Assembly (NCBI GenBank): GCA_030041195.1
Contig: JASHOI010000024.1
Span: 1-44,692 of the forward strand
Direction: 5' to 3'
Length of the DNA: 44,692 nt
From: Streptosporangiaceae bacterium
Lineage (GTDB): Bacteria; Actinomycetota; Actinomycetes; Streptosporangiales; Streptosporangiaceae
Position numbers and translations under genes: made by a program. This document shows, piece after piece, positions 16,856 to 23,847 of the stretch; the stretch's first letter is position 1, and every line of letters starts with the position of its first letter. The notes beneath the pieces are model-generated. The model saw nothing but the letters and a program-made list of their open reading frames with translations. It had not been told where the DNA came from and made no database searches.

Positions 16856-18982
<2,127 letters not shown>

Positions 18983-18985
<3 letters not shown>

Positions 18986-19053: not shown

Positions 19054-20619
19054 TTGACCGACCAGGATTCAGCAGCGATCGACCAGGACCGTGTCGAGCG
19101 CGCGATACGCGAGATCCTGCTGGCCATCGGCGAGGATCCGGACCGGGACGGCCTGCGCGACACTCCGGCCCGTGTCGCCAGGGCCTATGCCGAACAGTTC
19201 TCCGGGCTGCGGCAGCAGCCCGAGGACGTGCTCACCACGGTGTTCGATGCTGACCACGAGGAAATGGTCCTGGTGCGCGACATCGAAATGTACTCGACGT
19301 GCGTGCCGAGTCGGCAGGAGGTCAACGCCGTCGGCGGCCAGAAGCGCGCCGCGGACGTCGCGGTGGGCGACGAGCTCTATACGCTCGTCGACGGCGAAGT
19401 TCGGCGGACGAGAGTCACCGGCGCCAGCTCGCGCCAGGTCCGCGAGCTGGTTGAGCTGGTCACCGAAAAGGGGTGTTTCCGCGTCACCCCCGATCACCCG
19501 GTCGCCACGCCGGACGGCTGGATGGAGGCCGGTGATGCCGAGGGCAGGTTCATCGAGTGGACAGCCCCTCGGAAGCTGTGCCGGAGTCGGCTCTTGCCAG
19601 CATTCGGCTATGCCTTCGGATACGTCGTGGGCGCGGTCTGCGCAGACGGCACGGTAGGGAAGAACTATGTCTCCCTGGTCGTCAACGACCAGGAATACGC
19701 CAAGCGATTCGCCGAGGCACTGCGCGGTTCGATGAGAATCGACGCGTCGGCCCAGCCGGTGAGTAGGCCGTCGGGGTTCACCAAGCGGCAGACGCCCGGA
19801 TTCCGGGTCCGGGTAGTGTCCTCCTACCTGGCAGACATGATGCGGCAGTACGTGGGAGGTGACGCGAATCACCTGCGCCAGCGCTTCCCCCGCGTCGTGC
19901 TGCACGATGAGGAAACCTTCCGTGGCTTCCTTGACGGCTACATCGACGGTGATGGCTGCCGGCAGCCTCGCTCTGCCGGAAGCAAGATCATCAGCAGAAA
20001 TGTGCCATTCCTCGAAGAGATCGCGCAGATCATCGGTGCGCGGTTCACCCCCCGGGCCAATAATGCTTCGGCGCTGTGGGTGGCAGATAGCTGGTTCCGC
20101 AGGCACGGTTTCCGATCGCAAGCTGACACCCGGACCCGGCTGATCGAGTCCGAGTGGGCGGAAGTGCTCGAGGTGCGGCGGGTCAGGGCCGAAGGCAAGA
20201 AGCCCTTCACTGTGTACAGCTTCAGCTGCGAACCGCATCACACCTTCCTCATATCCGGACATCTCACGCATAATTGCGAACACCACCTGACACCGTTCTT
20301 CGGGTTCGCTCACGTGGGCTACATTCCGAATGAGAAGGGGCAGATCACGGGGCTGTCCAAGCTGGCCAGGCTGGTGGACCTGTACGCCAGGCGACCGCAG
20401 GTCCAGGAGCGGATGACCAGCCAGATCGCCGACGCGCTCATGAACGTTCTCGAGCCGCGCGGCGTTATCGTAGTGATAGAGGCCGAGCATTTGTGCATGT
20501 CCATGCGTGGCGTGCGAAAGCCGGGAGCCAAGACCGTTACCTCCGCCGTGCGCGGCATGTTCCTCGACTCCGACCGCACCCGCGCCGAAGCGATGAGCCT
20601 GCTGGTCGGCCGCCGCTGA
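19054..20619 (+). CDS. folE: GTP cyclohydrolase I precursor interrupted by an intein
   Basis: A 521-residue precursor. The N-extein (1-82) ends IEMYST and the C-extein (408-521) resumes [18 protein letters not shown]. Joined, they give a 196-residue FolE of normal length. FolE converts GTP to dihydroneopterin triphosphate, the first step of tetrahydrofolate synthesis. Zinc ligands by homology with E. coli Cys110, His113 and Cys181 are precursor Cys408, His411 and Cys481. Cys408 is also the intein +1 nucleophile, so the unspliced protein lacks an intact active site. The start is TTG at 19054, with AAAGGG eight bases upstream inside an inverted repeat; no better in-frame start exists. The frame is open throughout. 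It is followed by the other fol genes. Confidence 0.95.
19300..20274 (+). mobile_element. Full-length intein with LAGLIDADG homing endonuclease, in FolE
   Basis: Residues 83-407 of the FolE precursor form a 325-residue class 1 intein. Intein numbering: Cys1 in block A ([13 protein letters not shown]), block B TPDH at 63-66, LAGLIDADG motif 1 [11 protein letters not shown] at 107-117, motif 2 [10 protein letters not shown] at 210-219, block [15 protein letters not shown] at 305-318, and penultimate His324 with terminal Asn325, followed by Cys+1. All splicing residues are present and the endonuclease keeps an acidic residue in both motifs, so both activities may be intact. Codons such as ATA, AAT and AAA are visibly more frequent than in the exteins, fitting a recent horizontal origin. 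The insertion point is the most conserved active-site motif of the host, as usual for inteins. Confidence 0.93.
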
Positions 20620-20834
20620 GCATTTCCTCAGCGAAACCAGAACCAATCAGGCGCCGGGAGCGTCTTAGAGATGGCTGAACGAGATCCAGAACTAACGGAC
20701 GCGACTGGCTTATCGCCTTCCGGGCGGGGAAGCAGTCCGCTCATGGAGAGGCTAGCTGCGGTGTTCAGGCGTTTGCCCGCATCGTGTGTCGGCGATGACT
20801 ACCCTGGTGCCCCGTGACCCGGGGCTCGACCTAC

Positions 20835-22751
20835 ATGTCCGAGATGACTGACCGTAACGGGCCAGAGCCGGAAGAGCCACAAACCGGCGATACGGCGCAG
20901 AGCACCGAGCCGCGCGCCGCGAACCGGGTTGCCACCGCGGCGGCGCCGCTCGACCGCCTGCTGACCGGCCGCCCGCCGGACCGGAGGCACCAGCGCCGCT
21001 GGGTGCCGGTCATGGCGGCGCTGCTGTCGTTGCTGGTCGGGCTCATCTACATCATCGAAGGGCTGCGCAGCGGGCCGTTGTACCGGCATCTCAAGCATCC
21101 CCTGCACAAGCTCAACGAGATCGCGCCCGGTTCGCTCATCCTCTCCACCCGGGTCGCCGACGTCATCGTCGGGCTGCTGCTGCTCATGCTGGCGCACGGC
21201 CTGCGCAGACGAAAGAAGCGGGCCTGGCAGGGCGTGATGCTGCTGCTGGCCTTTGGCGTGATCCTGCATGCCGCACTGCACGACCGGCATCACGCCGCCG
21301 GCTTGATCGGCGCCGCGATCCTGCTGGTCATCCTGTGGATCTACCGCAGCGAGTTCTACGCGACCGGCGATCCGCGTACCCGCTGGCGCGCGGTGTGGGT
21401 TTTCCTGGGCCTCGCCACTGCCGACATCGCCATCGGCTTCGGCTACCTTGAATTCTCCTCGGGGAGCCTGCAGGCCGACTACACGCCGCTGCAGCGGCTG
21501 CAGTCGGCGATCTACAACCTGGTCGGCTTCAACGGGCCGGTCCATTTCGTGACCGCGACCCGCTCAGACATCTTCGGCGTCGTGATGGGCGGCCTCGGGC
21601 TGTTCACGGTCATCGTCGCCGGATACCTGTTCCTGCGCCCGGCCCGGCGCGAGGGCAAGCTCGGCGCGCGGGACGCGGAGCGGATCCGGGACCTGCTGGA
21701 CAAGTACGGGGAACGCGACTCGCTCGGTTATTTCACGCTGCGAACCGACAAGAGCATCATCTGGTCGCCGACGGGCAAGTCGTGCATCGGCTACCGGGTC
21801 CAGTCCGGGGTGATGCTGGCCAGCGGCGACCCCATCGGCGATCCCGAGGCCTGGCCGGGAGCGATCAACGCGTTCCTCGACGAGGCGGCCCGGCATGCCT
21901 GGGTCCCCGCGGTGCTGGGGTGCAGCGAGCTCGGCGCCGAGACCTGGTGCCGCGAGGACACCGGGCTGGCCGCGCTGGAACTCGGCGACGAGGCCATCGT
22001 CAACGTGGCCGACTTCACCCTGCAGGGCCGGTCCATGCGGAACGTCAGGCAGATGGTGACCCGGGTGTGCAAACACGGCTACGTGGCCGAAATCCGCCGG
22101 GTCCGCGACATCCCACGGGCCGAGATCGACCGGCTGAACCGGCAGGCCGACTCCTGGCGAGGCAACCCGACCGAGCGCGGGTTCTCGATGGCGCTGGGCC
22201 GCGTCGGCGGCGTGGGCGACGACGACTGCGTGATCGCCACCGCCACCGAAGACGGCGTGCTGCGCGCGATCCTGCACTTCGTGCCCTGGGGATCCGACGG
22301 CCTCTCGCTCGACCTGATGCGCCGGGACCGCGCCGCCCAGCCCGGCCTGAACGACTTCCTCATCGTGGAGGCGATCAAGCACGCGCCCGAGCTCGGCGTG
22401 AAGCGCATCTCGCTGAACTTCGCCATGTTCCGTGCCGCCCTGGAACGGGGTGAGCGGATCGGGGCCGGGCCGGTGCTGCGGGCCTGGCGCGGGCTGCTGC
22501 TGCTCGCGTCGCGGTGGTTCCAGATCGAGTCGCTGTACAAGTTCAACGCGAAGTTCTGCCCGGAGTGGGTGCCGCGGTTCGTCGTCTACACCGGCACCAG
22601 GGACATCCCGAGGATCGGGCTGGCCGCGCTCGAGGCGGAGGCCTTCGTCGTCTGGCCCACCGTCGAGGTGCGCAGGATCGCGCGGCAGGCCGCGCGCAGG
22701 CTCGGCCTCGGCAAGGTCAGGCGCGGGGTGCGCGCCGCGATCCAGCGGTAG
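20835..22751 (+). CDS. Membrane DUF2156 protein, lysylphosphatidylglycerol synthase-like
   Basis: A protein of about 638 residues. The N-terminal third has around five or six membrane segments (for example MAALLSLLVGLIYIIEGL, VIVGLLLLMLAHGL, LIGAAILLVILWIY). The C-terminal cytosolic part is a DUF2156/GNAT-like domain as in the MprF synthase: YFTLRTDKSIIWSP, ASGDPIGDPE, ISLNFAMFRAALERGE and LYKFNAKFCPEWVPRFVVY. MprF enzymes move an aminoacyl group from tRNA to phosphatidylglycerol, reducing surface charge. The substrate here, lysine or other, is inferred. A related gene lies in the Streptomyces fol cluster. The start could also be GTG 20814. The preceding 215-bp gap shows no gene and no clear promoter. 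Confidence 0.82.
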   Translation: MSEMTDRNGPEPEEPQTGDTAQSTEPRAANRVATAAAPLDRLLTGRPPDRRHQRRWVPVMAALLSLLVGLIYIIEGLRSGPLYRHLKHPLHKLNEIAPGSLILSTRVADVIVGLLLLMLAHGLRRRKKRAWQGVMLLLAFGVILHAALHDRHHAAGLIGAAILLVILWIYRSEFYATGDPRTRWRAVWVFLGLATADIAIGFGYLEFSSGSLQADYTPLQRLQSAIYNLVGFNGPVHFVTATRSDIFGVVMGGLGLFTVIVAGYLFLRPARREGKLGARDAERIRDLLDKYGERDSLGYFTLRTDKSIIWSPTGKSCIGYRVQSGVMLASGDPIGDPEAWPGAINAFLDEAARHAWVPAVLGCSELGAETWCREDTGLAALELGDEAIVNVADFTLQGRSMRNVRQMVTRVCKHGYVAEIRRVRDIPRAEIDRLNRQADSWRGNPTERGFSMALGRVGGVGDDDCVIATATEDGVLRAILHFVPWGSDGLSLDLMRRDRAAQPGLNDFLIVEAIKHAPELGVKRISLNFAMFRAALERGERIGAGPVLRAWRGLLLLASRWFQIESLYKFNAKFCPEWVPRFVVYTGTRDIPRIGLAALEAEAFVVWPTVEVRRIARQAARRLGLGKVRRGVRAAIQR

Positions 22752-22824
22752 CCGGGCGGTTGCCGCGTAGCGCAGGGCGGCGGGCGGTGCCCCGTGGTGC
22801 CCGGCAGCCCGTAGATTGACCACC

Positions 22825-23847
22825 ATGACCGGTGAGGCGGGCTCGGCGGCCGGGCCAGGGCGAGGGCCAGCGCGAGCGGGGCAAGCTGAGCGAGCGGGGC
22901 AGGCGGACCGGGTGCGCCCCCCGGGCCTGCCCGCGCCGGATCGCTGCCTGGTCATGGGCGTGATTAACGTGACCCCGGACTCGTTCTCCGACGGCGGCAG
23001 GTGGCTGGATCCGGCCGCGGCCGTGGCCCATGGCCTCATGCTCGCCGCCGAGGGCGCGGACATCGTCGACGTCGGAGGCGAGTCCACCCGCCCCGGGGCG
23101 GAGCGGGTAGATCAGGCGGAGGAACTGCGCCGGATCAGCCCGGTGATCTCCGAACTCGCCGCCGCGGGGATTCTGGTGAGCGTGGACACGATGCGGGCCG
23201 GCGTGGCCGAGTTCGCGCTGGGCGCCGGCGCCCAGCTGGTCAACGACGTCAGCGGGGGCCTGGCCGACCCGGGGATCGCGCGGGTGGTCGCGGAAGCCGG
23301 CGTGCCGTACGTGGTTACGCACTGGCGCGGGTACGGCCGCGACATGCAGGAACGGGCCGTCTATGACGACGTGGTACGCGAGGTCAGCGCCGAGCTCCGG
23401 TTGCGGGTCGACGCCGCCGTCGCGGCCGGGGTTGACGCATCGGCGATCATCGTGGACCCGGGCATCGGGTTCGCCAAATTGCCCGGGCATAACTGGGCCC
23501 TGCTGACCAGGCTCGGCGAGATCGCCAGGCTCGGCGGCGGCCGGCCGTTCCCGGTGCTGGTCGGCGCGTCGCGGAAAAGCTTCCTCGGCGCCCTGCTCCG
23601 GGACGCCGGCGGGCAGCCGCGCCCGGCCGGCGAGCGGGACGGCGCCACGGTCGCGGTGTCCGCGCTGGCGGCGGCCGCCGGCGCGTGGTGCGTGCGAGTG
23701 CACAGCGTCGCTGCGAACGCCGATGCCGTCCGGGTGGCCGCGCGCTGGGCGTCGGCTGCCGGGATCGCTGCCCCGGCGGGTACGTCCGGAGCGGACAGCG
23801 GAGCCGGAGCGGCCGATCCGGCGAGGGCCGGGGGAACCGCGGGATGA
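22825..23847 (+). CDS. folP: Dihydropteroate synthase
   Basis: A 340-residue TIM-barrel enzyme that condenses 4-aminobenzoate with dihydropterin pyrophosphate; it is the sulfonamide target. Signatures are GVINVTPDSFSDGG (about residues 43-56), VDVGGESTRPGA, NDVSGG and IIVDPGIGFAK, and the C-terminal SRKSF and RVHSV pterin/sulfa-site segments. The first 35 residues (Gly/Ala/Arg-rich) and the last 30 are low-complexity extensions of no clear role. ATG 22825 was preferred to TTG 22816. Its TGA overlaps the folB ATG (ATGA, 23844-23847). Confidence 0.95.
   Translation: MTGEAGSAAGPGRGPARAGQAERAGQADRVRPPGLPAPDRCLVMGVINVTPDSFSDGGRWLDPAAAVAHGLMLAAEGADIVDVGGESTRPGAERVDQAEELRRISPVISELAAAGILVSVDTMRAGVAEFALGAGAQLVNDVSGGLADPGIARVVAEAGVPYVVTHWRGYGRDMQERAVYDDVVREVSAELRLRVDAAVAAGVDASAIIVDPGIGFAKLPGHNWALLTRLGEIARLGGGRPFPVLVGASRKSFLGALLRDAGGQPRPAGERDGATVAVSALAAAAGAWCVRVHSVAANADAVRVAARWASAAGIAAPAGTSGADSGAGAADPARAGGTAG

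Follow-up and report, generated by a model that had tools for sequence, protein, structure and literature searches.

The segment at positions 19300..20274 of the window (the whole stretch of DNA analyzed, 44,692 nucleotides from a Streptosporangiaceae bacterium) is almost certainly a class-1 (Cys1) LAGLIDADG intein, which lies directly before the active-site cysteine of GTP cyclohydrolase I (FolE) and is predicted to be capable of both splicing and homing. A preliminary description, made from the letters of the DNA, had proposed an intein at this place in FolE; the homologues of the protein and the predicted fold of the insert show the intein to be real. Its relatives occupy the same site in bacteria and phages, and a group of free-standing derivatives lies beside folE in Streptomyces.

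An intein at the catalytic cysteine of FolE

The interrupted gene is a folE precursor of 521 amino acids with a TTG start (19054..20619; this and all other features of the window given here are on the + strand), the reading frame of which stays open through the insert. Its N-extein (19054..19299) comprises 82 residues and ends in ...DIEMYST. The intein (975 nt, 325 amino acids), a Hint splicing domain split by a LAGLIDADG endonuclease domain, starts with CVPSRQ after ...EMYST and finishes with ...GHLTHN before CEHHL. The C-extein (20275..20616), delimited by PF01227 and by alignment to the E. coli enzyme, runs for 114 residues from the Cys+1 of CEHH (codon 20275-20277). PF01227 matches the frame in two stretches that flank the insert (Pfam, E 2.4e-72); the flanks of this in-frame insert thus jointly match an uninterrupted FolE. 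The order of genes is a tilS-like gene, a phosphoribosyltransferase, ftsH (16856..18985), folE, a phosphatidylglycerol lysyltransferase-like gene (20814-22751), which separates folE from folP, and folP itself (Pterin_bind, 22816..23847); given folP and these neighbors, the window folE is part of a folate gene region.

The residues named in the preliminary description were all found in place: Cys1, the first splicing nucleophile (19300..19302); the block B TxxH motif, here TPDH, at intein residues 63-66 (19486..19497); the penultimate His324 and terminal Asn325 (20269..20274); Cys+1; and two LAGLIDADG motifs, one with Asp116 (19624..19650) and one with Asp218 (19927..19956). C1, T63, H66, H324 and N325, together with C310, an extra cysteine in block F (20227..20229), are each present in 168 of 168 aligned splicing members of the family, many of which were extracted by a pattern demanding a starting Cys and an N before CEHH; among the 120 homologues listed, one protein alone, the truncated P0035, fails that pattern. 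The 168 include 17 mini-inteins, and 119 of them come from one search and hence are not independent; seven of the 33 loci described below (L004, L006, L021, L022, L027, L028 and L032) were left out. At the level of sequence, such conservation excludes a chance origin of the splicing signature. With Cys1 in every member the intein is therefore of class 1; class 3 inteins, which carry a WCT motif and no nucleophile at position 1, were considered and rejected. The endonuclease aspartates are retained in 155 of 157 (D116) and 150 of 151 (D218) splicing members with a residue there, and W265...H269-G270-F271 (20092..20112) is kept in mini-inteins despite the deletion of the endonuclease.

The preliminary description had looked to intein and endonuclease profiles, and here the outcome was divided. 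LAGLIDADG_3 matches the insert with 24.3 bits, above its cut-off of 22.5 (Pfam), whereas Intein_splicing (Pfam, 13 bits against a cut-off of 35.8) and intein_Nterm (NCBIfam, 12.7 bits against 24.5) stay below theirs; the low scores are a matter of profile sensitivity and no biological feature. NCBIfam also gave a partial match to the RNA polymerase A'' model PRK14898 (37.5 bits against a cut-off of 783), and a sequence search of PDB returned weak matches to the Pho RadA intein alone (E 0.035). Decisive for the identity of the segment are its homologues and its predicted fold, rather than the curated intein profiles. The window protein has 833 homologues at E <= 1e-3, and the FolE domain PF01227 is present in every one of the best 120. 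The AlphaFold model of the intein combines a Hint fold with the two alpha/beta halves of a LAGLIDADG endonuclease, and PI-SceI, I-Tsp061I and I-SceI are among its fold matches. The corresponding model of the precursor, of low confidence (pLDDT 70, pTM 0.46), is uninformative about precursor inactivity.

In an alignment of the C-extein with E. coli GTP cyclohydrolase I (1fbx), Cys+1 falls on residue 110. We take the catalytic zinc to be bound by the Cys at this residue, by the His at the third position after it and by another Cys, and on that understanding the alignment agrees with the earlier claim that the +1 nucleophile is itself an active-site ligand. In the mechanism that we propose, Cys1 would perform an N-S shift after translation, Cys+1, the future zinc ligand, would accept the N-extein via transesterification, and Asn325 would cyclise; an S-N shift would then give a seamless FolE of 196 residues, the length of the exteins joined without the insert. 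The LAGLIDADG domain would cut intein-free folE at the CEHH codons, and repair would copy the intein in. Homing would keep the intein, at a site that could hardly mutate or lose it imprecisely because it encodes the catalytic centre. The window intein is one member of a same-site family with full-length, endonuclease-less and empty states.

Distribution of the family and its meaning for the host

FolE inteins were found in Actinomycetota, Rokubacteria, Planctomycetota, Gemmatimonadota, Chloroflexota and phages (some names of the surveyed groups are those that we presume to apply). The comparison with FolE of relatives upholds the intein: in 33 of 33 loci, 30 from the genome scan and three from a second viral scan, the insert lies in FolE at the same place. 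Mini-inteins of 501-576 nt occupy eight of these loci, and one further locus has an insert of 888 nt. The inteins closest to that of the window among the matches listed are 75% and 73% identical to it and belong to proteins named Actinomadura.

In surveys of larger groups each search scored just the top candidates per genome. In the family of Amycolatopsis L001 (Pseudonocardiaceae), 60 of 297 genomes match at 1e-3; 33 of these matches are FolE inteins and 27 are weak partial matches. Seventeen of the 33 carriers span the whole model and 16 show two end parts alone; 14 were already in the set, and all 19 that were newly fetched have the intein in FolE at this site. Matches were found in 2 of 249 genomes in the order of Thermomonospora (at 1e-15), in 21 of 95 in the phylum of Rokubacteria (at 1e-10; 20 span the model, and the FolE site is confirmed in five loci, those within the 33-locus set), in 3 of 251 in the phylum of Ktedonosporobacter (Chloroflexota; L066 counted by intein match alone), in 1 of 246 in Planctomycetota and in 9 of 396 in a sample of Actinomycetota. 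The last nine comprise five FolE-type inteins (L076 by intein match alone), three free-standing forms, to which we return below, and a distant partial match inside another long open reading frame (L079). The occurrence of the family is patchy, and its full, mini and empty alleles are those expected of an ordinary homing cycle.

Intein and extein identities correlate overall (0.69; 325 pairs from 26 sequences), so part of the distribution may reflect vertical descent with loss. Two outliers, with an intein more similar than its exteins, point to movement: P0120 and Amycolatopsis L001 are 44% identical in FolE and 67% in the intein, and phage L033 and Crossiella 38% and 61%, respectively. The correlation, and the endonuclease part missing in 16 of the 33 Pseudonocardiaceae carriers, would also be expected of a fixed relic that splices, has a dead endonuclease and is inherited vertically. 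We consider such a relic unlikely, for the endonuclease motifs of the window are intact, D116 and D218 included, the intein has been transferred across phyla, and its GC3 is 0.80 against 0.945 in the adjacent ftsH (exteins 0.85, folP 0.88).

No carriers of the FolE intein were found in a plasmid scan or in a first viral scan that used the window intein alone as query; a viral scan with alignment A3 yielded three contigs, two of them alike in match. These contigs (L031/L032 and L033; contexts L085-L087) carry FolE with the same intein. The terminase PF03354 was found in none of the three viral records, and viral status is therefore argued from IMG/VR, from the portal protein in the record of L033 (L087, G563) and from UvsX-like, single-strand-binding (SSB) and DnaB-like proteins in that of L032 (L086, G562); the two larger records look like phage. 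In L032 the neighborhood of the FolE-intein gene includes QueC, PTPS (QueD-type) and a radical SAM gene that scores just under the Pfam cut-off (27.1 against 29.5 bits), the company seen in 7-deazaguanine DNA-modification clusters. Phage FolE may be a vehicle for the intein. In the same phage, long stretches of the UvsX-like and DnaB-like proteins (L086:1861-3906 and L086:10782-13106, both on the - strand) resemble profiles that are labelled terminase large subunit or primase, perhaps on account of further inteins within these proteins.

The preliminary description had reasoned that folate synthesis depends on splicing, and that splicing, if sensitive to redox or zinc, could be a switch. Dependence is plausible for the 16 of 30 carriers that have neither a second FolE nor FolE2 (the latter occurs in two of the 30); the other 14 also encode an uninterrupted FolE. 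The 16 divide into eight named isolates and eight metagenome bins, possibly incomplete; in one of the bins (L020) the sole FolE has a broken frame. The idea of a switch, in which splicing and folate synthesis would respond to redox or zinc via Cys1, C310 and Cys+1, found no support and we regard it as improbable. It draws on the invariance of C310, which all 168 splicing members have and none of the 120 listed non-splicing members has, on the alignment of Cys+1 with what is presumably a zinc-site Cys, and on the 16 carriers with no other FolE or FolE2. Yet the search detected no FolE intein in 264 of the 297 Pseudonocardiaceae genomes, and in 14 of 30 carriers a second FolE accompanies the interrupted one. 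A general regulatory need is thus not apparent, and the patchy pattern of full, mini and empty alleles is that expected from selfish homing alone. C310, moreover, was lost along with the splicing residues and may merely serve catalysis or packing; its conservation suggests a link to splicing rather than to redox.

Extein frames are broken in two of the 33 loci, L006 (upstream of the intein) and L020 (downstream), in each case close to the intein; the L006 genome has an uninterrupted second FolE and the L020 genome has none. That the insert of the window is itself a frameshift, a mis-assembly or a decayed insert would find its one precedent in these two loci, but it is vanishingly improbable and for the window refuted by the uninterrupted frame, the conserved key residues and the hundreds of homologues.

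Free-standing ex-inteins beside folE in Streptomyces

The three free-standing matches of the Actinomycetota sample are genes adjoining an uninterrupted folE (L074, L075 and L078). The ex-intein of L074 (L074:1486-2478, - strand) lies downstream of an intact folE and is itself intact; that of L075 has an in-frame stop near its end, and that of L078 is frameshifted. Beyond L074, ex-inteins are present in L075, L078, L089, L095, L098, L101, L102, L109, L114 and L219. The L074 protein, in which Pfam finds no family at E <= 0.1, has 565 homologues at E <= 1e-3, and the best 120 of these measure 270-339 residues and are without CEHH. The organism-named proteins among these 120 are from Streptomyces, and the genus of G1030 is taken as Streptomyces on this ground. 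FolE is uninterrupted in 139 of 140 genomes of that genus, the remaining genome being without a match.

Ex-inteins derive from the FolE intein and have lost its splicing residues. In a quick tree with midpoint root, built from 50 of 56 rows (nine ex-inteins and 41 inteins; six minis left out), the ex-inteins form one clade (SH-aLRT 100), which is nested in a group of support 91 that includes the window intein. Among the 120 ex-inteins listed, Gly replaces C1 in all 87 that are aligned there (33 gaps), H66 survives in two, the position of C310 is Leu in nearly all, that of H324 is Arg in every one and Asn325 is kept in none; Asp116 is kept in 119 of 119 (one gap) and Asp218 in all 120. Near-invariant in the 168 splicing members and lost in these ex-inteins are C1, V2, G32, T63, H66, P67, E76, E86, H269, G270, V305, C310, H324 and N325, and near-invariant endonuclease positions are retained. 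The contrast possibly names E76, E86, H269, G270, V305 and C310, besides the known residues, as needed for splicing; it is a lead and no proof, because the ex-inteins are one clade and a residue may drift away on one branch.

A genome-wide search found the ex-intein in 10 of 140 Streptomyces genomes, in addition to L075 outside the sample. In all ten it follows folE on the same strand, 68-79 nt behind the folE stop in nine carriers and 238 nt in one; by our criterion six copies are intact and four broken. The occurrence is scattered: on the folE tree the ex-intein requires 9 changes, where shuffled data average 9.8 (87 of 500 shuffles are as low), with at least 5 changes on well-supported branches, and loss and gain are not distinguishable on this tree. 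Among the six intact copies, the LAGLIDADG part has a median dN/dS of 0.175 and the Hint parts have 0.34 and 0.24, values that are rough (15 pairs, dS near 1).

Two further features of these loci deserve mention. In the four carriers shown, folE and the ex-intein are separated by a strong stem, which is probably the terminator of folE; an RNA hairpin regulating the ex-intein was rejected, the folding energy of this stretch being no stronger in carriers than in non-carriers (median -33.2 versus -38.0 kcal/mol). In G1581 a second, inverted ex-intein piece (L225:2545-2751, - strand) occurs in a stretch that contains a run of N; since the aligned piece does not differ from the intact copy, it is probably an assembly fault.

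We tentatively propose, as a real possibility, that the ex-intein is a FolE intein that escaped in Streptomyces to become a splicing-dead, selected homing endonuclease, that it spreads by co-copying the 3' end of folE and that its own folE is recoded. It would cut endonuclease-free folE alleles and be copied in with the repaired folE 3' end, and synonymous codon changes at the old insertion site would shield the carrier's folE. The overall pattern suggests splicing-free homing, presumably with folE as target.

Codons at the old insertion site, which in carriers tend to be rare synonymous ones, bear on the proposed protection. All 10 carriers use GAA for the Glu, against 30 of 129 non-carriers (Fisher 1.6e-6), and 8 of 10 use CAT for the first His, against 43 of 129 (0.0051), kinship being ignored in both tests; L075, the carrier outside the sample, has GAA too. 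C-E-H-H is the four-codon window of lowest GC3 in folE, at 0.28 in carriers and 0.64 in non-carriers. TGT does not differ between the groups (6 of 10 carriers, 66 of 129 non-carriers), nor does CAT at the second His (5 of 10, 45 of 129), and carriers L101 and L102 show little recoding beyond GAA. Strong recoding, defined as four or more AT-ending codons in -5..+3, is seen in 8 of 10 carriers, and 21 of 129 non-carriers match most carriers in this respect. A kinship-corrected test with five well-supported independent pairs gave nothing significant; GAA, CAT(+2) and the summed measure went in the same direction or showed no difference, and TGT went in the opposite direction in a few pairings. 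Because of the recoding in non-carriers, the unchanged codons and the loss of significance after kinship, we treat self-protection by target recoding as hypothetical. The dip at C-E-H-H is present even in Streptomyces without the element, where the values for the same residue elsewhere in folE versus at the site are 1.00 versus 0.49 for Cys, 0.92 versus 0.66 for His and 0.91 versus 0.77 for Glu; it may be a mark left by earlier encounters with the endonuclease.

Known systems and significance

Endonuclease-bearing class-1 inteins (the Mtu RecA splicing domain, TliVMA/PhoVMA and PI-SceI) share with the FolE intein the Hint fold, Cys1, block B TxxH, the His-Asn end, Cys+1 and the central LAGLIDADG domain. 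Unlike them, the FolE intein has FolE as host and sits at its zinc Cys; in the structure alignments listed it is at most 28% identical to known inteins, and the extra invariant C310 and the W..HGF segment retained in mini-inteins are features of its own. Mycobacterium phages ET08, Gizmo and Colt have an intein-like insert in their portal protein with which all 325 residues can be aligned (E 1e-8), but at 25.6% identity and in an unrelated host protein. A literature search on FolE/GTP cyclohydrolase inteins or homing endonucleases, covering mostly open papers, found no report of such an intein, in line with the preliminary description, which knew of no characterised example; a search on actinobacterial or free-standing intein elements, covering mostly open papers, found no report of an ex-intein. 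Database entries of both families exist, named GTP cyclohydrolase or hypothetical protein.

For the ex-intein there are two points of comparison. Free-standing homing endonucleases of phages (T4 type) practice 'intronless homing', in which the gene lies beside its target and is inherited via co-conversion of the flanks. The ex-intein is like them in lying beside its presumed target and in its proposed inheritance with flanks, and unlike them in being chromosomal and intein-derived. In the yeast WHO elements and HO, a gene for an intein-like endonuclease follows its target gene, with a scattered occurrence and both intact genes and pseudogenes; WHO genes encode intein-zinc finger fusions, target FBA1 and occur with FBA1 3' fragments (PMC7282813). 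The ex-intein parallels WHO in its position downstream of the presumed target gene, its scatter and its mixture of intact and broken copies, and differs in adjoining folE, its apparent ancestral host gene. Searches of the ten carrier loci and of three longer contexts gave no second piece of folE with a meaningful E-value; with no such fragments, the ex-intein may work like a WHO element, yet is none.

If the FolE intein splices, then its excision uses the same Cys with which the enzyme must afterwards hold its zinc. This would be an extreme example of inteins in catalytic centres, and folate synthesis in carriers with no other FolE would hang on splicing. If our reading of the ex-intein is true, bacteria would have their own version of the WHO/HO route of yeast. 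One element is on view in several stages, as full intein, mini-intein, empty allele, phage-borne copy and splicing-less derivative, and the fate of an intein after the loss of splicing becomes testable in Streptomyces, a laboratory genus.
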